This document shows, in pieces, positions 6,448 through 62,838 of a stretch of 64,000 nt of DNA. Position numbers and translations under genes: made by a program. This DNA comes from Ianthella basta. Lineage: Eukaryota > Porifera > Demospongiae > Verongiida > Ianthellidae. The notes under the pieces were generated by a model that saw only the letters and a program-made list of their open reading frames with translations, searched no databases and was not told the origin of the DNA. The DNA is taken from assembly GCA_964019415.1 (NCBI GenBank), contig OZ025884.1, positions 4,347,193 to 4,411,192 on the forward strand, read 5' to 3'. Position 1 is the stretch's first letter. Every line of letters starts with the position of its first letter.

Positions 6448-6990
6448 GGCAGTAGCAGGCAGTAGCAGGTAGTAGCAGGTAGCAGGTAGCAGGCAGTAGC
6501 AGGTAGCAGGCAGTAGTAGGTAACGGGTAGTAGCAGGTAGCGGGCAGTAGCGGGCAGTAGCACGTAGCGGGCAGTAGCAGGTAGCGGGCAGTAGCAGGTA
6601 GCGGGCAGTAGCGGGCAGTAGTAGGTAGCGGGCAGTAGCAGGTAGCGGGCAGTAGCAGGTAGCGGGCAGTAGCAGGTAGCAGGCAGTAGCAGGTAGCGGG
6701 CAGTAGCAGGTAGCGGGCAGTAGCAGGTAGCGGGTAGTAGCAGGTAGCGGGTAGTAGCAGGTAGCGGGTAGTAGCAGGTAGCGGGTAGTAGCAGGTAGCG
6801 GGTAGTAGCAGGTAGCGGGTAGTAGCAGGTAGTGGGTAGTAGCAGGTAGCGGGCAGTAGCAGGCAGTAGCGGGCAGTAGCAGGTAGCGGGTAGTAGCAGG
6901 TAGCGGGCAGTAGCAGGCAGTAGCGAGCAGTAGCAGGTAGCGGGCAGTAGCAGGTAGCAAGCAGTCGCAGGTAGCAGGCAGCAGCAGGTT
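6448..6990. repeat. 17-bp minisatellite (about 31 units)
   Basis: Tandem array of a 17-bp unit close to GTAGCAGGTAGCGGGCA with C/T and A/G variants and some partial units. Runs of the GGGTAGTAGCAGGTAGC variant cluster in the middle (about 6730-6840), showing local homogenisation. Because 17 is not a multiple of three, each reading frame cycles through all three phases of the unit. Two long minus-strand frames (6367-7020 and 6426-7091) stay open through it, encoding a Leu/Pro/Ala/Thr/Tyr-rich 17-residue period. I regard these frames as by-products of a repeat lacking minus-strand stops, not as genes. Confidence 0.92.
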
Positions 6991-9601: not shown

Positions 9602-12600
9602 CTATTCATCAGGACACGGCACCAATGCAGGTATAGTGTTGTTGTTATCCCTAAGGAATACTGCCACTTTCCGCAGGATGGAGTTATCTGAATTTGCACA
9701 TTCATCAGCATCTGCTCTGCCTTCAATCAGCTCCTCAAGCTTGACGAGCTCATTTGCATCTGGCCTGGTGGCCTGCGCATACAAGGGACAAACAGCATTC
9801 ACTTATTAAACAAGCAGGTCCAAATCCCTATCATTGAGGTTGAATTGGTTGTTGGAGGATATGGGTAAAAGTTCTAGGTACTCATGCATGCTAATGTGCA
9901 TGGGCAGGAGCTGGACCAGTTCTGATATGTACTACAGCGCAGGCCTGTAGGGTGGTGGGATTGGTGGTTCAGAAGATCCCCTTCCCCCCTCCCTCCCCCA
10001 GCATTGGATGAGTCCACCAACCACTGAAAACTATACATTTTAGTCCCATAAATTTGCCATTCCATGTAATGTACATAGAAATGGCTCAGCTGAGCTCTAC
10101 TCAGCAGCACTCGTAGTATAGCATTGTGTTCCACTTTGGCTGGACAAGAGCCCTCCCATTTTCCTACTAGTCTATGGGCCTGCGTACAGTACATCATAAC
10201 TCATTTGCTAGCACTCATTGTAAAGAAATTCTTCTCCTTTCCTCACACAATCATAACCAGTTGATCTAGCAGCCAGACTTGGTTCATCTGCGCAGCAGTT
10301 TGCATGTGCACTAAGCAACATGGTAGTGCAATGAATTCCCTTCCTTAATATAGACTTCTAACACATATACTCTTTGTTTGTAAACATTTGATGCTGTGTG
10401 TGAAGTGCCACCACTTGATGTAGCTCACCAAACTCAATCATGATATATTAGAGATATACGTATAAACGTTTTCCCAAAAACCACAGAGGTAGGTATGGTG
10501 CATTGTCTCCCTCTTTGTATGGTGGCAGTAAATTTAAGAAACAAAGAGGATGGATCAGTCACTCAGTGTCTCTTAACATTATATGGGAATAATACCTACA
10601 TCTGTTAACACCTCAGTATACTTAATTCATCGTCCACAGATGTCACCAGATGTCACCAGATGTAGGGAGGATGATATTTCATAATGCATATTTACTGTAC
10701 TTTTGTGTGCAGCTGCACATGCTAAGCTATGACCACATCTTGTTATAATAAACGCAACGCACAAAACATTTGTTAACTAATTGCTCCTTCAGTTTTGGAC
10801 AAATGATCATGAAACATGGTAGAATTACAAAGAGGCGTAGCAAGAGTATTTTCCTACTAGTCTATGGGCCTGCGTACAGTACATCATAACTCATTTGCCA
10901 GTACTCATTGTGAAGAAATTCTTCTACTATCCTCACACAATAATAACCAGTTGATCTAGCAGCCGAAGCAGGTCGAGCCGAAATTTTGGTTTAAAGTAAT
11001 TCCGTCCACGTTCTTGGCACTTTTACGGTCCTGCCATATCTAAGAGATGTGGAAAAGATCATGTTTCGTTGTTCACAAACTCCTTCAAATTTCTACCAAT
11101 CTTCACCAACAATCTCTCCGTGCACACAACATAAGTAAATTCTGTGTGCACGGAGTTTTACGGAGCGAGCCTACAGAATGCTCCCAATTAAATAGGCAGA
11201 TTCCATTGGTTCAACACTCAAATTTCAAATGATATGCTGGAAACCCACCCAAAGGGTGGGTTATTCAGTTAGTGACATCAATGCAGGTATTGGCCTTGGC
11301 TGTTTTGATTCGGAGTAGAGGTGTCAACTTAGCACTTAGGCTCAACACCAACCAGCATATAAACAGAACAGGGACTGGAAGCTATCAGTGCAATAATTTA
11401 ATTTGATGGGCTAGTGGCTCAATTGCAGATGTCCTTGAAATGGTTTGCGAGTAAATTTTGGTTGAAGCTTGCTGTGCCTACACTACAAACAGCCATTGAG
11501 CCTAAGCTGGAGGAGGAGTAGGCAGACAACAGTGGTTAAACCCGTGCACCTACGACATTGGAAGATGGTGTAGGTGCATGGTGCATAGCAACATCTATCA
11601 AATGCCTGGAACCTCCATTACTGGAACTGCTTGCGGAGCTTTCTAACTTAATAAAGAAAGAATAATGAAATGCAGCCAGTCAAAAGCAGTGTAATAAGTT
11701 TACTTCTATTCCCCCATATTGTTCATGGTCTACTGCCGTTGAGAACCATAAGAATATGTAAGAAGACGATGAACACAGCTGAGGTCACTTTCTACAGGTG
11801 TGGCACTTTGTTTGGAAGTAAGGTTAGGCTTGCATACACTACCCCTTCCTCGTGGTTAGCCCTTTTTGCCGGTTTTCAGTTCTCTATCAGAACAGTGCTA
11901 CCTTCTGTTATATTACAGCATACATACAACCATCACCATCCCTACATAGTCAAGTATTACTGTGTCGTTTGATGAATTTCAAAAATGAAGGGTTTGCTGA
12001 CATAATTGTAAAATACATCTAGATGGTGCAGCACTTGAGCACTCGCTCACCGCATCTCCCCTGCAGAAGGAGCTAGAGGTAGCCGTCTTTGCATTACAGC
12101 CACACCAGAGGGATCCACCTTGGGGTGACATGAAGACTTCTTCTTCCATATTGGTCATGCCCAGTCGTGTTGTCATGCACTGCTCCTCTGTCAGACGACT
12201 GGGGGGAGTACCATGGGTAAAGAATTCTGCTCCAATGCATCCTTTCAAACCAGAGAAACCAATCTCCCCTGTAGATGAGAAAGCACTGTATAGATCCTGC
12301 AGCAATCATCACCTTGTCTCACTGATGATGCAAATATTCAAAAGAGATACACTCACCTACTCCATCGCAAGTACGGCCACTTTTGCTCAAGTTTTGCAGT
12401 CGTTGGATGAAAGGGTTTTTTACCAACTTATTTTTGAAGCACCTGGACAGGAACACGATTACTGCAAATTGATTCCAATGTTATGTGGTACTTGAAGTAG
12501 GTGAGCAGGCTTTATGTGATATATGACATAACAGTGAGGTCAAGTGGTGAATGGAACTAGGAAAGGACAATTGTTCCAGCATTTCTTGAGACCACACCCT

Positions 12601-14346
12601 GAGTGCCAACAACCCCATCAACTCCGAATGTTCTTTCAGCAGTTCAGTGTGATATACAAGGGTGGATTATGCTGAATTCTGTCATGTGCTGCAACCTGAT
12701 TGGAATACATTTATGTAATTTTTGGCTTACGTGATGTGCCTCACATCTGTGGAGCTTCAAAACCAATGAGAGGACCACAAATGGCTAATTCATATGTGCT
12801 AAATGCTTCACTGATATGGAAAAGGCACTTGTTTACTTTGAAGAATACTATGCTGCTGAAGAAACCAGCAATTAGCCACTTCTACACAAGGAAGAGCTGT
12901 GATGGAAGTATTTACGGAAAGATAGGAAGATCATAAAAGTTTGTACTAGTGAAGGAGCTTCACTGTCACAGGCAGGCTTTGTTAACTTAGCAACCATATT
13001 CTGCCAGTAGATAGCCTCTCTGAGTTCCAGCGAAAAGGGAAGAACTGCCATCAGCTGTAAGTTGTGCCATCAGACACAAAGTAAAACAGTGAGTGGCAGT
13101 GCAAAATCATCACAATTGATTAGAGAGTTCATTTTCCTTCCATAAAGATTTATTATCTATGGCATCTTATGTGATGGAAGTTATTAAAGTTTGCATTACT
13201 ACACAATATAAGGCACCTGGATTGCTTTTGATCCATGGCCCACTGACACAAGTCACAATGAACACAGAGAATATTCAACTTACGGATTGTTGGTAACAGA
13301 TTCTGGACATGTGCAGCAGGTAGTGGAAGGGTTTCCCATGGGTGGGGCACAAGTATCAATTGTGACATCTTCCATGTTATTGTGTGCAGCTGTCATGCCT
13401 CCCATGGTGTTCATATCCTGCAAATCAGATGATAGCATAGTATTGTAAAAAGCAATGCAAATCCTGGTGGTATGAACCAAAATGCATGAAACAACCTTTC
13501 TTCTTTCTAGGCACACAAGAATCCGAAAGCAGCATCCTTCTATCCCTGTTTCAGTATAGAAGTATACATTTGGAACTATACGGTAAATGCTGTTGTAGAT
13601 CTTTGTTGCAGGACGCATGCCTGGTAGGCTACCACAAGTTACAAGATCCTTATCCCAGCCAGACTTTTTCACAATAAGCTTGTCCTTACATCCGGTGTCT
13701 CCATCATTAGGGTTGCCCTCAATGTCCTGCTTCAAGACGTGCATGTACACTTGGTCTGCCTGTGGGAGGTTCCAGCGACAGATAGTGATATAGCTGTTGA
13801 ATGTCTTGTTTGCAGGACACTCCAGAGTAAATACTGTCGTATCAATGGGATCCAAACAGTCCATAGCAACAGGATTAGCATCACAAACGCATTTTTCTCC
13901 CACAACAGTGACAGTTGTGACGTTCTTCCTGCACAGGATGAAGATATATTACATAACCCCTAACCCCCTAACGTAACCAAGCTCATAACTTACATCACGG
14001 TGCTGTACACATCGAAACCGTAGCGGCCAAGTAGAACGCATGTAGCTTCGTCTAGCGATTTACCATATTTCGCTCTGCATATTTCCAAATCGAGAACTTG
14101 GGTGGTAACGTGTTCAACGGAAGTAACCGTTTCTTCCTCGACTCTACAGGAATAACAGTAAACGCATCTGGGAGGGATCGAAGGAAACAAACAGTTAAGG
14201 CAGCATTAACACCGGGGGACGCCATCGCAGACTCAAGCTGTTCGCTGCGACTATGCTCACCCTTTAGGCGTTTTCCCTGGTAGCGCGCATTCAGGGGACG
14301 CGCCGGCTAGGTGCACTGCGGCCAACACAACGATTACTCCGATCAT
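9602..14346 (-). CDS. secreted CUB-domain protein A (seven exons, paralogue family)
   Basis: Exons in transcript order: 14346-14261, 14167-13994, 13928-13496, 13417-13284, 12442-12357, 12268-12051, 9772-9602; total 1302 nt, 433 aa. The start gives a signal peptide, MIGVIVVLAAVHLAGA. Exon 2 has CVYCYSC and spaced Cys. Exon 3 carries a CUB-like domain: an ICRWNLPQADQVYMH strand, then GDTGCKDKLIV, then DLVTCGSLPG. Exon 4 ends in a TTCCTCPES cysteine knot. Exon 6 has the family core GFSGLKGCIGAEFF followed by LGMT and LWCGC. The last exon starts ATRPDANELVKLEEL and contains ECANSDNSILRKV. Intron phases 2-2-0-2-1-0 match genes B and C. It is probably extracellular; function unknown. Intron 6 is long (2.3 kb) and repeat-bearing. 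Confidence 0.85.
10158..10964. repeat. pair of 117-bp direct repeats 690 bp apart
   Basis: Positions 10158-10274 and 10848-10964 are near-identical without gaps, both starting ATTTTCCTACTAGTCTATGG and ending in GATCTAGCAGCC. They lie in intron 6 of CUB gene A. The layout resembles terminal direct repeats of a small element (807 bp overall) or an old segmental duplication. The 573 bp between them shows no coding similarity that I recognise. Confidence 0.85.
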
Positions 14347-14399
14347 TCCGCGAGCACACAATGGTCATACGGTCGCTCACAGCACCGTGTTTGCGCTGG

Positions 14400-14407
14400 C
14401 CTATATA
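14400..14407 (-). promoter_or_regulatory. TATA-like box of CUB gene A
   Basis: The minus strand reads TATATAGG about 55-60 bp upstream of the predicted ATG at 14346. The equivalent place in gene B has TATAAAGG, which supports both starts. Confidence 0.5.
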
Positions 14408-15078
14408 CAATCAGTAACCGGAAGTGGGCAGGTGAAACGCCATTCTACGCGCTATGCACCTTCTATATACCTTCTTTATTGTATTATACAACACGGTGCA
14501 TTTAAATAATAATAATAATAAACCATACCTACGAGCCTAAATTTGTGCCACCATGCATGTTATGACGTCACTACTCTGTCGCTGTCGAATCCATCCCTTT
14601 GATTCCTATTTTAGTGGCTTCATTGTAAGTCTAACACCTTGTTTGGTGCTCATGTGCATGCATGGCTACTTGGCCATACTCGCAGTGTCCACACAGCAGC
14701 TATCCCGCATCCCACCCGTGCATGTACATAGAGCCACAAATTATGTTTAAAGGTATATGTCCACAGCCATTGTACATTGCTACTTGTTTAATGCATGCAT
14801 GCACACAACATCAGCAGCAGCTGGAGTGGCCTGAAGATTACAGAATGCTAGGATGTGACATAGTTCATACTAACCATATTCATGTTGTGCATGCTGGAAC
14901 ACCAGTAAGAACAAAGCACTCACTCAAATGCTCACGAATGTCACTGTGTCAGCACACACACAATGTACAATAGCAGTTGGACGTACATACGTAGAATTAA
15001 ATACACCCTTAAAAGTGATAAAATACTTAGTTTTGTTAAATTAAACCACGAAGTGTTGTATCAACAGACTGAGCATAT

Positions 15079-17455
15079 CTAACATCTAATGTTGTCTGAC
15101 AATGTCAAAACAGGCACTTGCTGCGATGTCAGAAGGAATTCACTGACAGTACGAAGAACAGCGTTGTCTGAACTTGCACACTCGGTAGCCTTGACATGTC
15201 CAGCAAGCAACCCCTCTAGCTTAATCAGCTCCTTGGCATTTGGTCTAGTAGCCTGCACACAAGAAGAAACATACATTATCATGAAATATAATAGTACAGT
15301 GAAACCTGTCTAAGACAACCACCCATGGGCAAGTTCTAACTGACCATTATACACAGTTGGCTGCCCTACAGAGGTAGATTTCAATGGTGCTATTTGGGGT
15401 CAAGGCTGACCGTTTTAGAGGAGGCTGCCTAACACAGTGACCATCTTAGACAAGTTCTACTGTACTTCATGATGATCTCTGCATGCACTTTGTAGCTTGT
15501 ATCTTTATGATACAGTGCACCCTGCACTGTATGCCATCTGTAGTGGTACAGCACTAGATGACAAAAGTCTTATTCAAAACTTTAAATCTGACTCAGCTAT
15601 CCCTGCTTGACAACAACATGGACAGTCAATGGACAAGTTATGTACAAGAAGTGTCTGTGCCCAAACAGATCAATGATGTCAGACATTTGTGGTGCTTCTT
15701 TGCACAATCATTGTAACTATGGTAACCAAAATTTACCCCTGCACATAACAACAGTGTCCTTACAGGTATGCCATCCATACAGAAGGTGCTACTGCTTGGG
15801 CTGCTGCAACCACACCAGAGGGCGCTACCCCGCTCAAGGAAAGCTGACCTCTCCTCATCTGTCATACCCAGTTGCATGTTCTCACACTCCTCCCGTGTCA
15901 AGTTACTGGGGGGACTACCACGGGTAAGGAATTCAGCTCCAATACATCCTTTCAAGCCAGAGAAACCAGTTTTCCCTGCACAGGTGGAGTAAGGAAACAG
16001 CTGGTCACAAGTCAGTCCTTGTACATATGTGCACAGGAATCTGAAGGACAGGCATAACTGATGCAAGCCAATTCCAATCAATTACATAATAACCACTTCC
16101 TCTGCCTAAATTTGACACTTGGTGTATTAATGAGTCTACAGAATGAAAGCTATGAAAATGACTCACCTATTCCAAGACAAGGGCTGGAAGGATTTACACT
16201 TTCTTGTAACAATTTCTGGAAAACAATGTTGTTCTCCAAACCACCACTTGGACACCTGTACACAGGAGGAGACAGTTCCAATCGACAGCTAGTGAGCAAA
16301 TGCATTGACAGATGGTAATGAAGAGTCCAACCTACATCTGTCTGATGTTCACTTTTGGACATTCACAGCATGTAGTGAAAGGACTGAATGCTGGCGGGCT
16401 GTGGACATCGATGACTGCACCACCACGAGGCATGCTATTCCTTGAAATAGAGTTCCCTCTGATTTTCATGTCTGACAACTGCACACAAACAATATGAAGT
16501 GATAAAGATTGAGTGTAACTAAATGAAATCAATTCCACAGTCTAAGGACGCATATACTCTTGTACCAAGTAAAGGAAAATGTAAACAAACCTTTCTACTT
16601 AGGTAGACAAGAAGGATTTTGAAGCTGCTACTTTCCATGTCATCACTTGAGAAGAAAACATTTGGAACTTTACTGTAGACGCTGTTGTAGATCTTTGTTG
16701 CAGGACGTGTATATGGTAGGCTACCACAAGTTGTAAGATCCTCAGCCAAGTCTGTAGATTTCACAATAAGCTTGTCCTTACATCCGGTGTCTCCATCATT
16801 AGGGTTGCCTTCAATGTCCTGCTCCAAGAGGTGCATGTACACTTGGTCCGCCTGTGGGAGGTTCCAGTGGCAGATGATGTTTGATGGATCTTTGGAGCAA
16901 GCTCTAGGAGACTCAATAATGAATGAACTGTGGTTAGAGTCCACGCAATTTTGCACGACTGCGGTAGAATTACAGCTACAAACTTCGGCGGTGCTGTAAA
17001 CTGGTGTTTCTTTCCTATAATTCGGATGAAGAGAAATGATAATCATATCTCGTAACATCTCCACTCAGCTCCAGTTATACGCACACGGCACGGGTGGTAC
17101 TCACCTTTCATAGAAACCCATTAAATTGCACAAGTACTCGGTTGCCGGTATACCATATCTCTCACAGAATTCCTCGCACTCCTTGTGATTGATAGTTTCT
17201 GTTAACCTGTAACCTACGATTTCTCCAGTAGGCTCCTCTTTCACTTCGCAGCGATAACAGGCAGCGCAACTGCAAGAGAAGCACGGCGACACACAGTTCA
17301 TCATCTTTCCCGCACAGTTCCATGCAGTACAACAGTCGGCCAGTAGCCAAAACTCACCCTTCTTGTAGGTTGTTGGGGACCATACAGTTGAGAGGCGCTC
17401 TGGCGCCGGCCAGCGATACAGCTCCGATCAGAAGTAGGACAAGTCTTCCAGTCAT
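15079..17455 (-). CDS. secreted CUB-domain protein B (seven exons, paralogue family)
   Basis: Exons in transcript order: 17455-17358, 17269-17105, 17014-16591, 16478-16336, 16255-16167, 15975-15764, 15252-15079; total 1305 nt, 434 aa. Signal peptide MTGRLVLLLIGAVSLAGARA, then APLNCMVPNN. Exon 2 carries CAACYRCEVKEEPTGE and more Cys. The CUB-like exon has CHWNLPQADQVYMH, GDTGCKDKLIVK and TTCGSLPYTRPATKIYNS. Exon 4 contains FTTCCECPK. Exon 6 contains GFSGLKGCIGAEFL, then LTREECENMQLGMT and LWCGC. The last exon begins ATRPNAKELIKLEGLL with ECASSDNAVLRTV. All seven exon borders fall at the same place and phase as in A and C. It is closest to A, especially in the CUB exon. Likely extracellular; partner or ligand unknown. 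Confidence 0.86.
15295..15464. mobile_element. 170-bp MITE with TACAGT termini
   Basis: It begins TACAGTGAAACCTGTCTAAG and ends, read on the minus strand, TACAGTAGAACTTGTCTAAG, so about 20 bp of terminal inverted repeat are visible. It lies in intron 6 of CUB gene B. A second copy is at 30269-30444. There is no coding capacity; it was presumably moved in trans by a TA-targeting transposase. Confidence 0.85.
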
Positions 17456-17528
17456 ATCGCACACCGCGTTCTGTCAACTGAGTTAGTAAATCAAGGGAAG
17501 CGTTACTCAGAATCTCCGCTGCCGCGCT

Positions 17529-17536
17529 CCTTTATA
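17529..17536 (-). promoter_or_regulatory. TATA box of CUB gene B
   Basis: The minus strand reads TATAAAGG about 75 bp upstream of the ATG at 17455, in a moderately GC-rich promoter stretch. Confidence 0.6.
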
Positions 17537-19986
17537 CCCTCGCTTTGCACTTCACACCTGCCCAGAAGCTAGCAACAAGTGTCACCATAATTCTGTCGGA
17601 ATGATGTCATTACGGATGTCAGGTGTGATCAAACACAATAGCTATGCATGAGGTAGCGTTTGCACGGGAAGTTGTGTCATCCATTAATTATCAGCTGAAA
17701 TAGTTGGAAAGCCGGCAAATGTCACCAAAGCGCCCTGAATAAAGGATTTAGAATGAACCATGACAGACTCACTTTTTCCCTCTACTTCAACTCCTATATA
17801 TGTAATAATTGTGATGTGTGGTCCAACTGTACCAGTGATGGAGCTAAACGCCTTGAAACTTTTTCTACTGCTGTTACGTCTTATACTTTTACAAATATCA
17901 CTTTTACTCTACCTCCTCTGCCAGCAGGAACTTGATTGTCCTGAATTCCACATGTGACAGACAATGTACAAGTGTATGTTTAAACTCTCCGTCTCCAATG
18001 TACCTGACACGTCTCTTTCACACACCATCAACCCACCCAACACACATGCATCATCCACAAACCACCTCAACCTCCCTTTGACCCACCCATCTTCAGTTGT
18101 TCAAAAAGCCTTTCAGTTTTGCAGGTGCTTGGGCATGGTGATCCGTCCCATGCAATGTTCAAGTTTGCAAGGACTATCCCACATTCTGTTAACTGTGCAG
18201 TGCATGATCACATTCCTTTACACGAATACTGCATGTACTTGAAGTCACTATGCATTTCTCTACCCTTTTTGCATGCTTGATGACCTTTTAATTACTTTTT
18301 TCATATTCATCAATCTTACATTTGTACTAATCAGCCTCACTCAACTCTGTCTTATCACATTGTTTTCATTTCCCTCACCCCACCCTTTTCTCTCCTTATC
18401 ATGTGGTTGCCTTCAGAGTAGTCTCTGGCTAGTGACTATCCTGCTTCAAGATTAGCTACCTGAAACTAGCCTAACCAAAGGAGCATTAGAGGTATCGTAG
18501 GTGGAGGTATATTCACCCCCTCCTCTGAACACCAACCCAATACATTCACCTGTTACCACACACATTCATTATATTCTGAAGTCATGCATGCGTTTCTTAT
18601 CTATTATGTCACACATCATCCACTGTCACCTACTTTAGAAACAGCTTTTCTGAAGTCATGTCAGTTTTATACCAGATGAAAAAGATCTATAGATCGAAAC
18701 GTCCTAGACATAGATTGATTGGTTGTGATCGCCAATGGCAGCACTATCATGCACTCAAAAAATTCCTACCTTCATGTGTATGTGTGTGGCCAGTTTTGAA
18801 CAGAGGTGTAGTGAGTCATTTGATCATCAGACAGCTGCTCTGCATTACAGATCATTCTCATATACACACAAATATTGCATATGTATGTATGTGGATAAGT
18901 GAATAGCATTCTTCTTCTTGCATCATCACAGGCATACAACCACCGCCACCCAGCCCTAGTGTTAATTGCTATGGCTCATGCAGCAATTGTATGCATTTCC
19001 AATATTCTCCCTAGCATGCATGCACTTTCTACTCCTGTGCTGGGGTATATGCTGTGTGTGCACTCTAGTTTTAAAGAGACTAGAATTAATTTAATAAAAA
19101 GTTCTACAGAATTGTAAGGATGTAGGGATGGCACAAAAATACAGAAACAAGTTAAAGCTGTTACAAGGTGGAGCATTAACCATCATCCCTACATGCAAGA
19201 ATACTGCACCTTATAGTCCTACATCCTTGATTCAGATTGTAGGACTCTCAGCATCTCCTATGTTAATCAGACAGCACGGTAGTGCTCTCTATGTAGGGTG
19301 GCAGTGGTTGTTCGTATGTTGTAATACAAACAACCGCTCAAAAGCATAGAAACAAGCAACAGTAACTTAATACCATGATAAGCCACATTTCCGTGAAGTT
19401 CACTCTCCATTCCATTCCCTTGTAGCTGCATGGACCTAAATGTCCAACAGCTAGTCCCATATAGCTAGCTACTAGGAAATTAGGAATGCAGAGTGAGCTT
19501 CCTCCTGGTTCCTGCATTATAAGTAATAACAATTATATTCTGACATATTGGACATTGAGCTGAATCAGCTAATCATTCGCTAATATATCCTGCATAATAA
19601 CAAAGTTAATAGCTACCATGCAATGAGAAATCAAGCTGACTTGTTAAGACTACCATGTATAGCTGTAAATGAGACACGTGATGGTATTAATTGGAAAGTG
19701 GTTAATTTGATAGATTGGCATATAAACAAGTGGAAGCACCAGTGGTGCAACCTATGTATATTCAATTCAATTCAATTCCATTATTATCAACGTTCACCAT
19801 GCCACATGGTCGCACTAGGACTAACTGTGGTCCAATGTAGCACATACAAACATAAGAAACATCATGTAGATAGTCAGTAGATGAGTAAATCAGGATATCT
19901 GTGCCATAGCTAACAGGAAAAAGCATTGTGCCATTGTGACTACAACAGGAGGGGGAAAGAGGTGAGAACAACACATAGAGTCTTAA
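17537..19986. other. intergenic stretch upstream of CUB gene B
   Basis: No supported gene. ORFs are short and of non-coding composition. A hammerhead-like core sits at 18673-18699 (entered separately). Confidence 0.5.
18673..18699 (+). other. hammerhead-ribozyme-like core (degenerate)
   Basis: Reads CAGATGA, then a GATC-TATA-GATC stem-loop, then GAAA and CGTC. This matches the order CUGAUGA - stem II - GAAA of hammerhead ribozymes with one change in the first box. Such motifs are known at the ends of Penelope-like retroelements. Catalysis is doubtful because a core base differs. Confidence 0.4.
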
Positions 19987-22060
19987 TTAAAATTTGCCAA
20001 ACCGAGCATACCACATTGACATAATAGTGGACAAAATGTTGTAGTTCCTACAAGCAAGGGACAGTAGGTGAGCTGTGCTTTCTGCTTCTTCTGTGTGTGA
20101 TTGGACTTCAGGCAACAATGGCTGTCGATGGCTGTTCCATGCTGGACATCTCAGAAGCCAATGCATCACATCTTCTACTTCATTTCTGGTACACTCCTTG
20201 CACAGCCTATCCTCTCTCTTCACTCCCTGCCACCTGCCTGTCTCCACCTGAAAAGCTGCTGTGCCTCCCCTTAGCTTCAGCAAAACCCTCCTCTCCCTCT
20301 TTGCCTTCACATCTGCACAAGAAGACTCCTCACCACACTCAACAATCCTCCTCAACATTGACAACTTCGGTTTCATCTCCAAATCCTTGCTTCATTCTGC
20401 CCTCACTCTCTGCCATGCAACACTCTCCAGCATTCCTTTCAACTCCGCCTCTGACATGTTCTGTACCTGCTCAGCACCCACCACCTGCCAACCAAATTCC
20501 CTACAACAACTCAGCATCTTCTGCATCCAACTGCCCTTGCCATATTTTACTGCCTCCATTGCCACTCTCCTCAATATTCTCCCCTCATACACTTTGCTTG
20601 CCAGCACTTTGAACCAAAAAAGGGTGCATCGCATTCTTGCCAACCACACTATTGGCAGATCCCCCATTTCTAATAACAGTGACACTCTAGGGTGCAGGGT
20701 TCCAACACCAAAGAACATCCGACATGCCCTCAGTTGTATATGATTCACAGCTTCTAGATTCTGAGAGCACCCCCAAATTTCAGCTCCATACAGCATGGAG
20801 GACTCCACCAGCGAACTCATCAGCTTCTTGAACGTCCCAATGCCTATATCCCCCACTTCTACTCTGTACCGCTGAAACCAAGCCCCCAAGGCCTTCATCC
20901 CTGCCACTACTTTGTCTTGTACCATCTCCTTAAGGTCCAAGTGCTCATCTATCACACACCCAAGTACTTGTAGCAGCTCACCATTGGAATCTCCTCACCA
21001 TCGATCATGTATCTTATCTCATTTCTCATCACTTTCTTCTTTCTGATGTGCATGATACCACACTTTTCAACATCGATCCTGATCCCCAAATCTTCACACC
21101 ACTGCACAAGTACATCTAGACTCTTTTTTAATCCCTCTCTGTCTGAGGCCAACAAGGTGGTGTCATCTGCAAAGAGGAGACCTGGTATGGTGTCACCACC
21201 ACACTCCACACCACAGCTATCTTCCCTCAGTCTGGACACTACTCCATTTATGTAAAGGGAGAATAACAAGGGAGAGAGAACACAGCCCTGACGAAGACCA
21301 GCATTGACCCGAAACTCCTCACTCTGTTCACCTCCTACTTTGACATGGCAGGTGGTCCCCTCATAAAGGGCCTTCAAGAAATGCAAGAACTTGCCATTTA
21401 TCCCCAACCCCTCGAGGCAACCTCAGAATTTCCTCCTGTCCACTTTGTCATATGCCTTAGAGAAATCTATGAATGCAACCATCATCCCATTCGCCTTCTT
21501 CACCATTTCCATCTGTCCCAACAGCACCAACGTCAACACCTGGTCCCTGCACCCCCTCCGCTTCCTGAACCTCCTTGCTCATCTGCAATCAGACCTTCCA
21601 CTTCAGCTACACTTGACAAACGGTTGTTTAAAACCATACATAGGACCTTACTCACAGTAGAAGTCAGTGAGACTCCACGGAAGTTGTTCACGTCACACGC
21701 CCCTTTAGCCTGATTCTTAGGTACTGGAACCACTAAGCTCTCCTTCCATGCAGATGGGACAAGACCATACTCCCAGCAGACTTGGAACAGCACCAGCCAA
21801 AGTCCAAGAAGACAGTCAGCCTTCATCATCTCTACAGCAATTCCAACTTGCCCTGGAGCAGCATCCTTCCTCACTCTTTCCAATGCCCATTGCACTTCTT
21901 CTGCTGGGATAGGTGCGCAGAGGCGGTCGTATATATAGTAGGACAATCTATGTACTTCAGCTTGTCATCTGCAAAGAGGAGACCTGGTATGGTGTCACCA
22001 CCACACTCCACACCACAGCTATCTTCCCTCAGTCTGGACACTACAAGGCACTTCATTTCC
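19987..22060 (-). pseudogene. non-LTR retrotransposon reverse transcriptase remnant
   Basis: Minus-strand frames 21946-21533, 21407-20952, 20955-20392 and 20382-19987 together form a reverse transcriptase of a LINE. Visible motifs are an upstream KNQAKGACDVNNFRGVSL block, FIDFSKAYDKVDR, LRQGCVLSPLLFSLYING and the catalytic LLFADDTTLL. A C-terminal CKEC...H...C zinc-knuckle-like tail is also present. Frameshifts and at least one stop interrupt it. No endonuclease domain is seen, so the copy is 5' truncated. About 75 bp around the FADD motif (21170-21244) reappear at 21969-22045, an internal rearrangement. The copy is inactive. Confidence 0.9.
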
Positions 22061-22939
22061 TTCACTTGCTCTATTATCTGCCCTCAAGCTTCGTGCTCTA
22101 AATCCCACAGACACCTCTTGGACGGCATTTAACTATTACTTGTACTACCTAAGCAGAAGCACTATGCCACCACATGCCACCACCAGCCCCACACAGTGCA
22201 AGTTGCAAAGTGCATGAATATGACAGTGCTGCAAAGGAAGCACCACTCTAACATGTAATTGTTGCAGTTTGCCAGGGCCATGGAACAATGGTGCAAGTTG
22301 GAGCGCAGCAACAATATGCAACTTGCTCATAGGCTTGTCCAGCTTTGGCAGTTGTGTCCATGTACAGCTGTGTGTTGACACTGCAGCCCACTCCCTCTTG
22401 TACTGTTACGGGGTCCAACCAGACACTCTACATTAAACTCGCATTGGTAGTGTTTGCCTGCAGCAATGGCATATTAAAGCACAAGCTGCAACTTCACTAT
22501 GGGACAGTTCTCTAAAGCAATATACCTTATAGAGAGTTCACTCTGAGTTTTGACAGTCCACTGGTTAGCTTTTGCATGCATGTGGATGCTGTATAGATTA
22601 ACTGTTTGTATGAAAGAGTGGCTAAGTAGATGCTGTGTAAGATCTCTCCTTGTCTACATAAATCCACAAACTTAGAAGTGTCAGCTATGTATATAATGTA
22701 GCTGGTCGACACTCTAGCTTTTGAGACTGACCACAGTGACTTGCATTACTATATATCAGGCAGTGTCTCCCTGGATAGCTACTACTTGAGCTCCTTACCT
22801 GAGCAGGTCCACTGTTAGTAGTAGTGGCATATATGGAAAGTGACAGAGTATTAGGCCCCTGCATTTGTATCTGCATTGTGTTCCTTTCCAAAGCATGTGG
22901 ATCACATGGCCCTGGTAGCCATCTTGATGTCATATGTAT
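22061..22939. other. intergenic stretch between two RT remnants
   Basis: No gene or recognised repeat beyond short palindromic words. Confidence 0.45.
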
Positions 22940-23950
22940 ATATCTTTATGGGTACCCCATCAGCCGGTGAACATCATCCAGGGACTCTACACTGGTACAG
23001 GTTGCTATGTGAGAACAGCATATGATGCATGTATTAAAGACGTTTGGGTGACCGGGGTGAGGCAGGGCTACGTGTTACCCTTGTTGAGCTGTTTCATGGA
23101 CAGGATTCCGAGGGAAGCGACTTTAATGCTTGGAGGTGATGTGCACATTGAATGCACCCCTACTGGTGGTCTGGTCCTTTCCTTTCAGGACAAGACTTGG
23201 CCTCCTGGATTTCAAATTTGCTGTGTGTGGATGACATCATGCTGGTTGCAGCCACAGTGACTAAGTAGGAGGGAACTACAACACATGCTGGATGTCCTGG
23301 TCAGAACCTGAGTCCAATTGGGCATAAATATCAGTGTTAGTTAAACCAAATCCTCATAGTTAAAGAGCAAGCTAAGGGCCAGCCATCTATCACAATGCAA
23401 TTTCAAGTATTGGGAGCTGGAGTCTATCTAGTACCTGGACAGTGAGGTGGGTCAGATTGTGGACGGTAGCAGTGAGGCTTGAGAAGGCTAGCAAAGTGTA
23501 CCTAATGGAGAGGAAAATCTGCAGGAGATACAACCTCAGCAAAGCCACCAATAGTCACGTATGTATTATGAGTAATGCTAAAGTCTGTCCTTCATTCTGT
23601 ATGGAGAGTTGGCTAGTTACACAGCATGCATAGGCATAACATCAGAGGGTTGAAGACCTTTCAGATGCGATGTCTCAGAGACATCTTGGGATTCATCTGT
23701 GGGACATGCACCACATTGTAGATATCCTGAAGGGAGTTGGGAGAGTTACCAGTGGATGAACAGCTGAGACACAGGTGACTGCAACAGCTACGTAGGCCAC
23801 CTGCAGTGGGTGCATGCCCTAGCCCCAGACCACAAGGGTTTGGAAGAGAAACATCTTGGTGGAAGTCTGCAATTATGGATTGATGTGATCAGCAGGGACC
23901 TGTAGGAGTGACCAACTGGCAGAAGGTGGCCAACAACTGAGCCAAATGGT
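22940..23950 (+). pseudogene. second, degraded non-LTR reverse transcriptase remnant
   Basis: The plus strand shows VTGVRQGYVLPLL (compare the RT block LRQGCVLSPLLF), then VDDIMLVAAT (the catalytic A/V-DD box) and a LYGE-like block. A frame near 23650-23700 reads MRCLRDILGF. The tail resembles the W...A..R..W end of LINE proteins. Many stops and frameshifts are present. The orientation and sequence differ from the 20-22 kb copy, so this is a separate insertion of another family. Confidence 0.75.
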
Positions 23951-24068
23951 GAGCTGTTTTACAGGAGTATACACTAGTATATACCTGTCACCATATGAGC
24001 ATCATATAGACCTGTCCAACATAGACAGGGTTAAGAAGTGTGTGTGTGTGTGTGTGCATGCATACATA

Positions 24069-24110
<42 letters not shown>

Positions 24111-25187
24111 TGTAGCTACAGATCATCTCTTATATTGTGGAGCTACCCAATATTGCAGTGAAATGCCTCTTCATGTGACCACCACAATCTGCAGAGCAAA
24201 AAGTAGCAGAACTGGGTGTCCCCTGACTATTTGCTGAAATGTTCACTAAGGCCTAGGGAGAACACTGGGAGGACAGACAGAAGTACCTCTAGCTGTCTCC
24301 AAAAGATAATTAGAAATGAACTCTCCAGTGGAACACCTAGGGCCATGGGGGATCAAGGATGATTGTACATGCTCTCTAGATCAGCTAGCACATTTAGTAT
24401 TACTATTTCCCAGCATGCGTACTAGTCTGCCAGATATATTGTAGCAAAAATCAGTAACTAATCTTCTGTGTGAGACTGAAAAGAGGGAATAACACACTGG
24501 AAGCTGGAAGCTATGTACATATGTATGTACTGTAGATGAACTGAAGAGGAAGTTTCAGCATGTTCATGCGACTGAAGAAACAACCATAATCATTGTCGGT
24601 CAAGGCTGTTCAAGTGTTGTAACGCATTATCACTTTAATAGCTTGGTCTCAACAAGGAGAACCTAGTCATAATAATTATAACAAGTCTACCTCCACCTTG
24701 TTAATCTACCCTGCATGGCTTGCCCAGCATTGATCTTCCTGTGGGTATTGTCAGTACATCCTAACAGTATGCACTGGCATCCTATTTGGTTGTTGCTCCA
24801 AATATAAACTGAATTCAAATAATTGTGTTTCTGCCTGCCAAATGAGAGACACTCCCATACAGAGACATCCACATTCAAACACCCCTTTCTTTTAATATGT
24901 AACTATTCTACCAGTACGCATTGATCAACCGTTTCTCTACATTGACTATACAGTTTAACACAATGAGCGTAACTAGAAGGACATCAGGTCATACGTATTA
25001 TGTATACGTACAGTACATGGGGTGAACAGCTTAGTGCTTGCAGTAGTGTGTACTTTGTGGCAAAAGGGAATGGTGTATAAATATAAAAAGCATTTGGATA
25101 AATATTAAAATGCAATAAGTATCCAGATCCATACTCAATCTGTTATATGGATAGGGTTTGTGTACTGCAGGTGTTAAGTTGCAGACT
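23951..25187. other. intergenic stretch with TG microsatellite
   Basis: Contains (TG)n tracts at about 24037-24056 and 24071-24112. Nothing else is recognised before the stop of CUB gene C. Confidence 0.6.
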
Positions 25188-27657
25188 TTACTGTGGGCGC
25201 ATATACCGAATGGTGTTTTCACTCAAGATGTGATCAGCAACAGTCTGGAGGATAGGGTTGTCTGATCCGGCACACTCAGAAGCTCTGGTGTTAGCATTAG
25301 GGCTATAGACCATGTGGTGCAGCTGGACTAGCTCATGGGGGTCAGGTCGGGTGGCCTGGAAGGCAAAGAGTAGGGATATAAGCATGGTGATACAGCTGGG
25401 TTGGATAGCAATAGTGCTTCACTGCAAAGAAACAGAAGTGTATGGATGACACCGGCCAGTTAGTCATGTTGACATGCAGGAGGATGACTCTGGGAGTATG
25501 CTAGTATTGCTATTGTTGATCTTGCCAAATGAATGGTTTGGTCTATATCTGCCAGACTACATACATAAGTTTGGTCATCAACAGTTGCATCACAAGATCA
25601 TAAAAACTAGCAGCTAGCTAATTCAGTGGTGTTCACGCTCTAAACTGGTCTGTGCTAGTGCAGAAAGCTAGCTAAGTCTATCTAGCAAGCTCTAGATATT
25701 AGTCATAATAAACTCACTGCAGTGTCACCACATGTGTCAGTAGGGGTGTATCCACTCCACATTGCTTCACCTAGTACCAAGAAGTCTGCTGCCTCTTGGG
25801 GTGTCATGCCCAAGCGAAAGGTTTCACATTCTTCTACTGTCAGACTATTGACTGAAGTAGGGCTGCCACAATGGAAGAACTCTGCTCCTGGGCAACCTTT
25901 GTATCCATTGAAACCATATGCAGCTATGGGGCATAGGGGGAATGCATACACAAAGATGTGTCCATTGATCTGCTATGGCTTGACCAAGTGCTAAGGCTAT
26001 ACAATGGAATCCGTCAACACTTGAATCCCAAGGACATGCATGAACCTCCATGACCAGTTAACTCGTGATGCATTAAGACATACCACCATCTGGGATGTTG
26101 CTCTTGATTGCTGTGTACTTTGTGTAATATGGGTTGTTATTCAAGGAGGCACTGGAACACCTGTTAGAAAACAGTGACATTATATCAATTGCCATGGTGT
26201 AATGCTACGTATGAAGACTAACAGATAACTCTCCAATGAACTGTCAGAAAACTCACAGTGTTGTAATGGGTGTATTGAGGGCTCTGCATCTACAGCCTTC
26301 GGCTGTGGCAGCATTGTCATGCCGGGAGGCCAGAATGTTTACTGTATGATTACTGGTTCCTAGGAAAATAGCCACATCTCTCTGTAGCAGCAGGGTAGCA
26401 AAAGGTGGAAATGTTTGAAGCTGAAGTGTACACAACACAAAGCAAGTGCAGACACAGTTACAGTGAAGTATATACCTTGCTGACTGGCGGGTCATAGTAG
26501 GCAACAAGCATCTCAAATCCAACCCCTTCATTCGTTGCATTGCTAACAAAGAAGGTTTCCACTCCATTTCCAAGAAAGTCATTGTTTATCACAGCTGGAA
26601 GACCTTGTGAGTTCCCGCATGTGACCAAGTCTTCGTTGAAGTTGTCCGACTGAATCATAAGCTTGTCGTCACAGTTTCCAGACACTTGGTGTATGCCTCG
26701 TGCTGTGAGACTAATATAGATGCCTGAACCTGGCTCAGGGATGTTCCAGTAACATAAAGTGTTGTTTGGGTAAGGTGTTGGACTGGCAATGAAGAATACA
26801 CGCTCTGATATGCTGAGACAAACTTCATGAATTGGGACTGGGTCTACATTGCAGACCAGCTTCACAATGGCCTCCGTCACGGTTTCCATCCTATAAATGA
26901 AGCAAGTATGATGTCACAAGAGGCCGAACAACATCCACATGCTGCTGCACATGTGTACCCGCTATGGTATTGGAGGATTAGATAAAGGAAGGGTGCTGAG
27001 CTGGCCTTGGTTCCCAATCACTCACTATTATGCATGGTTACTGCTCACTGAGCTAAACACAGCAAGTATACAACTGTTGCACAGCAATGAGATATGTGTA
27101 TGCACCCCAAAACTGTCAAACACTGCACAGTGCACTGCTGACTACCTGCTAGCAATGCATTATAATAACAATGAATATACAGCGACGTGCAGTTTACACC
27201 GCCATAACACTGTACTACAGCGTGCGGCCAGCTAGGTGTTACGAAGAGTGAGTGCTGTAATTAGCTACTTACATTGTATACCCCAGGATTACACAAATTG
27301 ATTCATCTGCCGTCAGGCCGAAGGTGTCCAAGTACTCCTGACAAGCCACGAGATCAGCCACAACATTACCCGTTTCGACCACTTGGTACTCTCCAGTGGG
27401 CACTTCAACAACGCTGTACTTGTAGCAAGCGCCGCACCTGAACATGGACCAATAAGCAGGGAAGGTTCGGTACATTGCGTCGCAGTTTGTGCACGTGTGC
27501 ACGTCTAGCGGCATTTCCATGTGTGTGTGCGTGTGTCGGTACTGAGCGACACTTACCCCTCTTCTGGTATTTCAGGTATGGTGCAGTTGAGATCACTTGC
27601 TGCAGCGAGCACCAGGGCAGAGAGAAAGGCAAGACCAATTCCTCTGAGCTTGTCCAT
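25188..27657 (-). CDS. secreted CUB-domain protein C (seven exons, paralogue family)
   Basis: Exons in transcript order: 27657-27557, 27437-27273, 26890-26476, 26381-26257, 26160-26084, 25923-25718, 25355-25188; total 1257 nt, 418 aa. Signal peptide MDKLRGIGLAFLSALVLAAA, then SDLNCTIPE. Exon 2 has CGACYKYSVVEVPTGEY. The CUB-like exon has LCYWNIPEPGSGIYISL, GNCDDKLMIQ, DLVTCGNSQG and a GVGFEMLVAYY strand. Exon 4 has EGCRCRAL. Exon 6 has GFNGYKGCPGAEFF, then LTVEECETFRLGMT. The last exon begins ATRPDPHELVQLHHM and holds ECAGSDNPILQTV. Intron phases are identical to A and B. It is the most diverged of the three; LWCGC becomes MWSGY. Function unknown. Confidence 0.86.
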
Positions 27658-34404: not shown

Positions 34405-37400
34405 TCATAATTCTTTATTCTGCTGTCTAATTGCAGTCAGCAGTTCCCGAGCTGTGTTCTGAAGAGATGCCCAATAGGAGTCGGTATGGTCGTGCATGTC
34501 CCACTGTTTCAAACGCACCTCTAGAATCTGTGTGGCACCCACAAAGCTGCATACATCAGCACATGCCTGCATGCCTTCAATGGCCTTCTGCTGATGATCC
34601 AGATCAGGGTGGAGCAGCAGGCTAACCATAACACGACACCACACAGAGTCAGAGACTGTATTCAGCAAGATGGGTCTAAGAGGAAAAAGCCGTTAAGTGC
34701 TGAACACATCAAACCATGCGGACAGTTGTCAGCCCCATTACTCTATTGTGCTCCAATATATCAGATGTGGAACCATTCAGCTCACCCACACTATGTTTAT
34801 AAACATGGCATATGCATCACATACACACATCCCAGAAGGGTTTGTTTGGGGGTATTATGCGACTTAAACTAATGGCTATTGAGATATGAATACACTGAGT
34901 GGTGCATGCCACACATACCATGTGATACTACATTTCCTTGCATGGTTTAATCAGGGTGCACAGTGTTGTTTCTGCCACATAATCAAAGGGTTACATGTAT
35001 CAACACATCACGTAGCACGATAGCTAGGTACTACTGAAGTGAGGGTTTCTCAGCTGTCATAGGCATGAGAAAGCCCTGGGCCTGAGAGCCACCACCCCAT
35101 CAGGTGGGAGGAAGCCATGGTGATTGACCGGGCCAGAAGCTCCAGGGAACTGCTACTCAAAGAGCCAATCCACATCCGGCTGCTCCAACCTCCCCTCAAC
35201 AAGGATGTTGGACTTGAGCTGCCTGGGTGTTGGACAGCTGCCTCGAAAGGCAGTGAAGGCTGGGCCAATCAGAATCATTCCAACAGCACCCTTTCATGAT
35301 GCAATTTCCAGTGACAGCAGATGATGAGATGCATTGCTATAACATGAGTGCTCATGCTAGCTTCTTTTCTTTTACCCTGAAGAAGACCAGAGCATCTGGT
35401 CGAAATGTCAGCAAGGTTCAAACCCTGCTGTGATCAAGCTGGTAATTGGAGAACCAACCCCTTTCTCAGCTAGGTACAACTGTATGTGTTCAGTGTACAC
35501 TAAGCACCTCACATTGCTGACTTACCTCAGTGTGGTCTGTTCACTACTGGCATCCTCTCCCTCCTGTACATTGAAGGCATACAGTACATTGAATCATGAT
35601 GTGAAGCTCAAAGAGTATGGAAGCAATTTCATCAATTGGATAGTATGTGGTGCACATGCCACAGTAGCAGCTGTCATCATTTAAGTTTGTTCTGACCAAA
35701 AGGTTCACAATGTTTCGGTATATACTGTACAGTAGCATTCTGCATTCACCATGTCACAGCACTCTTAGCTAGCCAGTCTAACTGTTGTGTGCACATAAAT
35801 GTGTATACTAATAGACTTCATTATTCATTACATAAATTGTCATTACTTGTCACCAACATCAATATAAGTTGTGGGAGACTAGGAGTGCTGTTTGTTGCCT
35901 TCACTGATGAAGGTAGCTGAGTGCTAACAATACGTCTGAACCTTCCGATAGAGTGAACAGATCTGAACAATGTGAGACTACCTAGCCACTCAGGACTGGT
36001 CAAACTCAATATAAGCCACTGACATATATCAACACAGCATAGAAAGATATGTATGTACTTAGCAGCAGTGAATAATAAGGAACTAGCAATGTGTGTGCGT
36101 ACCACACATGTGCATACCAGTTCATTCAGCATGTCTGTCAGGAACACAAGTGCTTTAATCTGGTACTTTGTGCTCCTGTCCTGCAGGTCCCTGCCAACAA
36201 CATGCAGCCCATCCAGTGTCACAATGAAGTGCTGCTGAGCATCACGATTGTGTCTAAGTATGGCACTAATGGCAAAGAGTGCCCTCCGCTGTAGAGTGTC
36301 TGACTCAGGATCACCGGAGGGGTGCAGGGAAGGGAGTAGGGAGTTCAAGCAGCCAAGAACCAAAGCTTGTTGCTGTACGACCGGGTTGCTGTTCAGGGAT
36401 AACAGGGAAGGGTTGGCATGAACCACTCAGGATGCACTGCAGTGCCACTCTAATGCATTGTATGCATCACAAACACAGTAGAGGATTTAAAGCCTCTTTC
36501 CTAACATTCTTACAGGTACTTGTACGTGAGCAGTGCATGCAAAGTATAGACCCCTTGCAAAGGTAGTGTGGATCCATCCTTGAGGAGTCAATTCTAATAG
36601 TGTTCCAATGGGTAAAATTACATTCTAGAGGTACATACTCTCTGCCACTGTTTGAAGACTCCTATATGTATGTGTACATGGCATTGTTAAACTGCCAGTG
36701 CTGCCCCAATACAAGGAACTGCATGGTGGAAATATGCAGGGTAAGCAAATAAGTAGCAGCTATATGTGCTGAATGAAAGTAGGAAGAGGCTATATCCTGC
36801 ATTCTTGTTTATAGCAGCCGCAGACATCATTGGACAAGTAGATGTAATTTGAGCAATTAAAATACACACCAGTCAGTGCTTGTACGTATGCCTTTGATCA
36901 TACAGTTAAACTACACTGTGTGCTTACAAAGTACTTTGTATGCAGCATAGTCAGTGGAACAAGATGACTGTGCCTTACACCAATGAAGCAGACATGATAG
37001 CTACCTCTGGTGTATTGCTGTTGACAAGCCTCACCTCTGTGCAGCTGATCCAATGACTTGTGCGGCCATAGAGCGAATGACAGTGCTTGTGTGGTTCAAG
37101 AACTTCATAACAAGACTAAGCCCTCCAACAGTGGCAAAGAACTCGCCATTGTCAATCTGATGCACAAAGTACTCCAACTCTTGCATGCTGTGAGTCAAGT
37201 CATCAAGAGTGGCATTACTCCTGGCAAGAACATCAAAGTGCTCCAGCATTGCTCTGTGCTCCTTGGTAAGAAACTTCTCTCCAAACCTGTCCATGACCTC
37301 GTCCTCTTCCTTGCTCCATTCAGACACTGCTGGCTCATTGCCTGAGTCCATACCCATGGAGGGTGACCCATTTGGGATATGGGGAAGAAAGTGCAAGGTG

Positions 37401-37846
37401 TCCTGCTTCTGTTCTTTCAAGGACTCTCGCAGCTGTTCCTTAGTAAAAGCAACAGATTTCTTATTAACAATACCCACTCTGTCCGAGGACCCCAAATGGT
37501 TGGCTCGCCGAATGTCTTTATATGGCACACCTTGAACAGCTGGTTCTTCTGCACTGCTTAAGGCATCAACGTTGCTGCTTTCGTCTCCTTCCTGTTCACT
37601 GTCTTGTAACAGTTTAGCTTCTTTCTCCCCAGTCCGAAGGTTAATCCTCACATGAAGACCTGGAGGAATAGTCTCATCATCGCTGATGCGCTTCCACTCA
37701 GTGGTCGGCTCAAACAACTTTGTCTCCGGTTCCAAATCTGTGTCCTCCACAGCCAACTGTAAGTCGTCGCCATCATCAATCTCGTTGCTGTGTACGCAAG
37801 CGAGATAGATACAAAGATAAAGAAGAAATCCTCTTTGGACGGCCAT
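34405..37846 (-). CDS. SIL1: SIL1 nucleotide exchange factor for BiP
   Basis: ER-lumenal armadillo/HEAT-type protein that releases ADP from the Hsp70 BiP. Clear exons: 37846-37035, 36388-36118 and 34675-34405 (stop TGA). At least one short exon of phase 0 to 2 between 34676 and 36117 is not resolved. The N-terminus MAVQRGFLLYLCIYLACVHS is a signal peptide. Family landmarks are EWKRISDDETIPPGLHVRIN followed by LRTGEKEAKL (human: [20 protein letters not shown]), LEYFVHQIDNGEFF, GGLSLVMKFLN, RRALFAISAILRH and DSVWCRVMVSLLLHP. The length will be about 451 aa plus the missing exon, near the human 461. The C-terminus ends NKEL. The AATAAA formed by the Asn-Lys codons overlaps the CDS end. Confidence 0.92.
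35077..35250 (+). pseudogene. Penelope/GIY-YIG-type retroelement C-terminal fragment
   Basis: The plus strand reads HPIRWEEAMVIDRARSSREL, then KEPIHIRLLQPPLNKDVGLE and LPGCW. This is the pattern of the tail found after RT in Penelope-like and related elements (W-x-A-x-V-x-D...R...KEAIxIR...LNxDxGLELP). It lies in a SIL1 intron in the opposite orientation, 127 bp before a hammerhead-like core on the same strand. Confidence 0.6.
35377..35405 (+). other. hammerhead-ribozyme-like core near Penelope-like tail
   Basis: CTGAAGA is followed by a stem II (GACCAG - AGCAT - CTGGTC, six paired bases) and GAAA. The first box differs from CUGAUGA by one base. It follows the GIY-YIG-type tail at 35077-35250, as expected for the terminal repeat of Penelope-like elements. 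Confidence 0.5.

Positions 37847-47797: not shown

Positions 47798-47835
<38 letters not shown>

Positions 47836-52808: not shown

Positions 52809-52816
<8 letters not shown>
52781..52816 (+). promoter_or_regulatory. TFIP11 core promoter: TGACGTAA, CCAAT and TISU/YY1-like start
   Basis: A CRE/ATF-like TGACGTAA (52783-52790) and GCCAAT precede the start. The start codon context CAAAATGGCGGA resembles the TISU/YY1 element (SAASATGGCGGC, 10 of 12). In mammals TISU marks housekeeping genes with very short 5' UTRs. Confidence 0.5.

Positions 52817-62838
<10,022 letters not shown>

Follow-up and report, generated by a model that had tools for sequence, protein, structure and literature searches.

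In a stretch of 64,000 nucleotides from the sponge Ianthella basta, hereafter the window (contig C17, 4347193-4411192), three tandem genes on the minus strand, which we call A, B and C, encode proteins built around a single divergent CUB domain that is flanked by cysteine-rich regions. We consider it an open call, with the balance even, that these genes make up a three-gene tandem family of sponge CUB proteins that are secreted and bind ligands. The CUB assignment is carried by the third exon of gene C, which is similar to the CUB domains of complement protease C1s and to those encoded elsewhere in the same genome, and it extends to A and B mainly through their homology to C. Within that exon, A and B are homogenised over a stretch that is best explained by local gene conversion.

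Gene structure, copy number and constraint

We rebuilt the three gene models from the raw sequence, using open reading frames (ORFs) and splice sites (Table 1). All 18 introns are of the GT-AG type, and counterpart exons differ in length by multiples of three only. The initial annotation of this DNA had proposed three tandem genes on the minus strand, each with seven exons and intron phases 2-2-0-2-1-0, and the rebuilt models return the same arrangement, together with exactly the protein lengths (433, 434 and 418 amino acids, aa) and the outer coordinates (9602 and 27657) given there. Relative to A, the protein of B is 47% identical and that of C 35%. As for the elements described as common to the family, the signal peptide, the Cys-rich exon 2, the CUB-like exon 3, the GxKGCxGAEF motif of exon 6 and the ATRP motif of exon 7 are found in all three, but CCxC is not: both this motif (exon 4) and WCGC (exon 6) belong to A and B and are not kept in C. 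Of the two introns that flank the CUB exon in each gene, one is in phase 2 and the other in phase 0, and with these boundaries the exon is not one of the symmetrical modules with phase 1-1 introns that are classically associated with exon shuffling. Separately, intron 6 of gene A carries two direct repeats of 117 bases (10158-10274 and 10848-10964), which are 95% identical and 690 bases apart.

Protein searches of the whole genome (209,087,449 bases in 96 contigs) with A, B and C, in which matches up to E=10 were collected and every candidate was scored, returned 14, 16 and 15 matches, respectively, all of them inside the array except one each. The likeness between the genes is not due to chance, as paralogous exons were recovered at E-values down to 3.5e-42 (exon 3 of B by A; 5.9e-42 in the reverse direction), and, with all but three single matches falling inside the array, there is no recognisable fourth copy in the genome. 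The matches outside are C14:429063 for gene A (E=0.67), C20:4755095 for gene B (E=0.09), a 94-aa frame antisense to a 1037-aa frame that by eye is fibronectin III-like and which we took as chance, and C5:7180951 for gene C (E=1.45), a CUB domain that was independently found by the Pfam model PF00431. The end regions of the three proteins match nothing elsewhere in the genome, everything outside the array having an E-value above 0.09. Two short peptide patterns from the exon 6 alignment gave 39 pattern matches in prokaryote contigs, and two from the whole alignment gave 155 in viral contigs; none was confirmed in either set. The titles and abstract openings of the papers listed do not describe the family, which is no proof that it is unpublished. 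The mitochondrial contig, of 21,233 bases, fits a sponge: its COX1 contains nine in-frame TGA codons, so that TGA is read as an amino acid, ARAGORN locates 17 tRNA genes in 19,000 of its bases, and a frame of 78 aa by eye is ATP9. Mitochondria of cnidarians have no atp9 and two tRNA genes at the most, while a large tRNA set and atp9 occur in many demosponges and homoscleromorphs, and the organism is accordingly taken to belong to one of these two sponge classes.

Compared with A or B, C is synonymously saturated (proportion of synonymous differences, pS, of 0.79), with nonsynonymous differences of 0.45-0.46, and A and B are separated from each other by a dS of 1.07 and a dN of 0.48 (synonymous and nonsynonymous divergence by the Nei-Gojobori count). 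Since long, open, spliced frames persist at saturated synonymous divergence, A, B and C have apparently been kept as proteins, which suggests that they are genes held under protein-level constraint; by appearance they look intact and old.

The CUB exon and its homogenised stretch

Exon 3 had been described as CUB-like, a description borne out best by gene C. Against PF00431 its exon 3 scores 19.8 bits (E=0.001), slightly short of the curated cut-off of 21.4. Among PDB sequences it finds C1s chains with two CUBs at E=5.1e-6 as the sum of two stretches (0.035 and 5 singly) and single-CUB C1s chains at E=0.0079 and 0.015; residues 36-131 of its 138 align with both CUB1 and CUB2 of C1s. We also built a CUB model from the sponge's own genome, from 15 of at least 35 PF00431 matches picked for the widest coverage of the profile, and tested it on the three array sequences together with 9,000 shuffles. 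C scores 31.7 bits, with the best shuffle at 12.5. A and B are different in that the family model does not detect their third exons (no match at E<=10), and their scores against the 15-CUB model, 5.6 bits for A (at least 23 shuffles higher) and 6.5 bits for B (16 shuffles higher), are not decisive alone. When profiles are compared with each other, exon 3 of A, B and C together matches the 15 CUBs at a probability of 95.7 (E=1e-8 for this single comparison), and exon 3 of A and B alone at 53.6.

All three proteins have the C1-C2 and C3-C4 cysteines of a CUB domain, spaced 26, 25 and 22 residues apart for the first pair (A, B and C, respectively) and 18 in each for the second. Like the W and the C..D motif of the array proteins, these pairs are shared with the CUB domains of C1s and with PF00431. 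We take them to be the conserved CUB disulfide pairs, so that bonds between C1 and C2 and between C3 and C4 are to be expected in all three domains. Several of the 15 own-genome CUBs have no first pair. Judged by the matches of C to C1s and to the 15-CUB model, and by the cysteine pairs, exon 3 encodes a divergent CUB domain, directly supported in C and barely recognisable in A and B when these are taken alone.

The structure model of exon 3, examined for the jelly roll typical of CUB domains, is nearly all strand and of low confidence and does not decide the matter, with a predicted local distance difference test score (pLDDT) of 44.8. A Foldseek search with it places the CUB domain of Neto2 (7f57) first (E=0.012), with cupins close behind, and the CUB_C domain of TSG-6 (2wno) at rank 10. 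VIA-align of the same model returns mostly cupins and, by their titles, no CUB before row 42 (Neto2); this result is of no help to the CUB assignment and, at such a pLDDT, was given no weight. TSG-6 CUB_C is also weakly matched in sequence by exon 3 of C (E=0.17) and by the family profile at E=1.8, while an unrelated glycoside hydrolase scores 1.7. Beyond the CUB itself the array proteins differ from these proteins, as neither a Link domain nor a membrane segment was found in them. The C1r/C1s/MASP proteases have the architecture CUB-EGF-CUB-CCP-CCP-serine protease. A, B and C are not members of that group: they are single-CUB proteins, in which the Pfam scans found no EGF, CCP or trypsin-like serine protease match.

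The PF00431 matches in this genome, at least 35 in number, lie on six contigs; A, B and C do not appear among the matches listed. Fourteen of these matches, on both strands, fall within 2592319-2726839 of contig C16, apparently a larger tandem CUB array, and two clusters on contig C15 hold seven (2013630-2080748) and four (3489940-3563457), several of the C15 domains having YPLNK..VWQI.IP-like cores.

The evidence for gene conversion comes from synonymous codon choice. We considered the 188 codons that encode the same amino acid in A and B, Met and Trp excluded, and compared the clustering of identical codons with 20,000 permutations. Overall, 122 of the 188 are identical, but these are unevenly spread: 54/57 within A residues 123-207 versus 68/131 elsewhere. 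The stretch scores 45.7, a value reached by none of the permutations (highest, 36.7). In line with this, pS over residues 136-207 is 0.156 between A and B, versus 0.828 between A and C and 0.849 between B and C, and in windows of 20 codons the A/B values are 0.08-0.20 across alignment columns 151-220 and 0.45-0.99 outside them, except for an edge window (0.30) and a patch in exon 6 (0.20-0.33). That patch (19 of 23 codons) was considered as a second conversion and rejected as not significant, as 1,361 of the 20,000 permutations reached it. BLAST of A against B on the same strand aligns 297 columns of exon 3 (82% identical) and 120 of exon 6 (81%), plus a trivial overlap of the input pieces, and on the opposite strand gives a single weak match of 42 bases; the introns of A and B, which on the same strand match by no more than a few bases next to the exons, do not align. 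Since protein-level selection hardly accounts for matching synonymous codons, the best reading is that gene conversion acted locally on the two genes, in the middle of the CUB exon, and not very recently, given that the best stretch aligned by BLAST is just 82% identical at the DNA level.

Table 1. Coordinates of the three genes, their parts and a neighbouring element within the window.
Feature	Coordinates	Strand	Basis or remark
Gene A	9602..14346	(-)	433 aa; frame open across all seven exons; introns GT-AG, in phases 2-2-0-2-1-0
Gene A, exons 1-7	14261-14346, 13994-14167, 13496-13928, 13284-13417, 12357-12442, 12051-12268, 9602-9772	(-)	
Gene A, AATAAA			about 102 bases 3' of the stop
Gene B	15079..17455	(-)	434 aa; frame open across all seven exons; introns GT-AG, in phases 2-2-0-2-1-0
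Gene B, exons 1-7	17358-17455, 17105-17269, 16591-17014, 16336-16478, 16167-16255, 15764-15975, 15079-15252	(-)	
Gene B, TATAAA			81 bases 5' of the ATG
Gene C	25188..27657	(-)	418 aa; frame open across all seven exons; introns GT-AG, in phases 2-2-0-2-1-0
Gene C, exons 1-7	27557-27657, 27273-27437, 26476-26890, 26257-26381, 26084-26160, 25718-25923, 25188-25355	(-)	
CUB exon 3 of C	26476..26890	(-)	PF00431, C1s match, 15-CUB model
CUB exon 3 of B	16591..17014	(-)	homology to C exon 3 (E=7e-9); four CUB cysteines, spacing 25 and 18
CUB exon 3 of A	13496..13928	(-)	homology to C exon 3 (E=6.5e-8); four CUB cysteines, spacing 26 and 18
Homogenised stretch, A residues 123-207, common to B	13568..13822	(-)	gene-conversion signature; coordinates derived from residue numbers and exon ends
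Exon 6 of A, GxKGCxGAEF ... WCGC region	12051..12268	(-)	no family match; counterparts B 15764-15975, C 25718-25923
Decayed LINE-like reverse-transcriptase sequence	19987..21946	(-)	fills part of the B-C gap, outside the family; broken ORFs, FADD motif by eye

Cysteine-rich ends, proposed function and alternatives

The predicted proteins contain 29 (A), 26 (B) and 18 (C) cysteines, of which 16 are invariant across the three; eight more are common to A and B and have no counterpart in C (0/8). As eight is even, entire disulfide bonds may have been lost. NxS/T sites number 4, 3 and 4. Pfam holds no significant match for either of the cysteine-rich ends: no family at all is returned at E<=10 for the C-terminal parts of the three proteins or for the N-terminal part of A, the N-terminal part of B returns only CodY (0.16) and DUF1660 (1.1), both far below the cut-off, and that of C was scanned within the whole protein. 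A profile of exon 6 gives nothing below E=0.36 against PDB sequences, and its structure model consists of four short helices at low confidence (pLDDT 55.2). The occurrence of VCSC and of WCGC behind an EC..G motif hinted at an internal duplication relating the two ends, but the idea was rejected, as the two profiles match with a probability of just 0.1. A putative likeness of the CGC...C..G.ATxP region to cysteine-rich diatom proteins was set aside and carries no weight here. The earlier statement that the architecture matches no family thus stands, in Pfam-A and PDB sequences, for the architecture as a whole and for the parts outside the CUB, but not for the core.

The most hydrophobic 12-residue segment of each protein begins at residue 2 (A), 5 (B) or 7 (C) and by eye is followed by a cleavage site of the A-x-A/S type. 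Past residue 30, only two segments exceed the threshold of 1.6, at residue 216 of A (1.89) and 112 of C (1.64), both within exon 3. As each begins with a hydrophobic segment and lacks a strong one further on, the three should be secreted, as initially annotated; support for that prediction comes entirely from the N-terminal segment.

PMC4222235 describes Glu45, Asp98 and Ser100 of human C1s CUB1 as contacting a lysine of the partner protein, and Asp53 as essential to the calcium site. In one alignment of A, B and C with the 15 CUBs, the residues that we matched by hand to Glu45, Asp53 and Asp98 are E/D/E in A, E/D/D in B and H/D/N in C; for C, phmmer aligns a Q, not the H, with Glu45. Because A and B keep the acidic positions and C is without two of them, calcium-dependent binding of basic partners is a putative property of A and B, from which C may differ.

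On this basis, a way of working can be proposed. The proteins would be exported, folded by disulfides and bind ligands outside the cell, with the CUB domain as the binding part. In A and B its acidic residues would hold calcium and grip a lysine of a basic partner, as in C1s CUB1, and C, having lost two of the three acidic positions, would either bind in another manner or fail to bind. The cysteine-rich ends could serve as disulfide-locked scaffolds or as oligomerisation parts, and through gene conversion A and B would have exchanged the central part of the CUB exon. Whether function follows from sequence in this way we regard as about evenly balanced. Considerably more doubtful is the full picture of a sponge-restricted secreted family for recognition or adhesion, combining a CUB with cysteine-rich domains of two families not yet described, the cores of A and B being kept alike by conversion and binding calcium, and C, without the site and eight of the cysteines, having another role.

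The proteins might instead be structural components of the extracellular matrix or an adhesive glue, whose disulfide-rich ends polymerise and whose CUB is a mere spacer, making them matter for the matrix and not for recognition. Their many cysteines, their NxS/T sites and the failure of the Pfam scans to find any enzymatic domain would all suit such a role; an internal duplication of the ends was not found, however, and by eye the sequences have no repeat-rich or low-complexity stretch, although neither point is decisive, and we regard this alternative as unlikely but worth keeping in sight. We give appreciably less weight to immune or symbiont recognition under diversifying selection, with gene conversion as the maker of variants. 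The A/B conversion stretch would be expected there, and in its 3' half (residues 173-207) the proportion of nonsynonymous differences (pN), 0.198, is not below pS, 0.166. However, this segment was chosen after looking and holds few differences (16 nonsynonymous and 4 synonymous), over the whole of residues 136-207 pN (0.111) is below pS (0.156), and the family has only three genes, with no fourth copy found in the genome; we draw no selection claim from residues 173-207.

That the local similarity of A and B reflects strong purifying selection on the CUB core, not gene conversion, is very improbable. Protein identity is high in the stretch too, and at 82% DNA identity a conversion, if there was one, was not very recent; yet synonymous codon choice is conserved along with the protein, the same residues 136-207 are synonymously saturated between C and A or B (pS 0.83 and 0.85), and the introns provide no same-strand match beyond the exon edges. 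We see as slight a chance that one or more of the genes is a pseudogene or mispredicted. The models are predictions from genomic sequence, and the exon 3 donors of A (GTTGTT) and B (GTTTGT) look weak, but all three frames are open across seven exons and agree in phase, at synonymous saturation relative to C, which speaks against decay or misprediction.

Surroundings and meaning

Upstream of the genes, no exact 8-base word is common to the 400 bases preceding A, B and C, and a TATA-type pattern occurs 4 times in the window versus 4.47 expected. CRE-like upstream words (TGACGTCA in A, TGACATCA in B and GACGTCA in C) were picked by eye and are not claimed. Part of the gap between B and C is taken up by a decayed sequence resembling a long interspersed nuclear element (LINE), for positions 20000-20300 of which the genome yields 133 candidates and, counting the self-match, 40 scored matches; the ORF at 20392-20955, neighbour of the one with the FADD motif, has no reverse-transcriptase match. 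A gene on the same strand upstream of the array (37031-37846) has a sub-threshold match to Fes1 (E=0.009) and by eye is SIL1-like. Further exons on the minus strand, in the region that adjoins the array (40354-49299), match NIDO (E=1e-14), TIG (2.6e-5) and VWD (9.7e-9) and probably belong to one adhesion-type gene, and exons on the plus strand at 52809-58675 match TIP_N (7e-11) and GCFC (3e-10), probably from a gene for tuftelin-interacting protein 11. At 6452-6989 lies a minisatellite of about 32 copies of 17 bases, with long spurious minus-strand frames rich in CYLLLPAT. No functional link of A, B and C to the surrounding genes is suggested, and the word "system" in the initial annotation is not supported, as nothing connects the three to partners.

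Taken at the level of sequence, A, B and C are a small family with a known CUB core and ends that have no catalogued relatives in the libraries searched, and the evidence presented here does not make them a new kind of system. What is new is the homogenised CUB stretch of A and B and the distribution of the acidic calcium-site positions, kept in A and B and two of them lost in C. Should relatives of the family prove widespread, the finding would chiefly add new domain families to the catalogues; should they be limited to one clade, it would be a modest lineage-specific novelty. With a likely calcium site in A and B and none in C, the array offers a natural comparison, and its members are clear candidates for studying how secreted proteins that bind ligands were built in early-branching animals.

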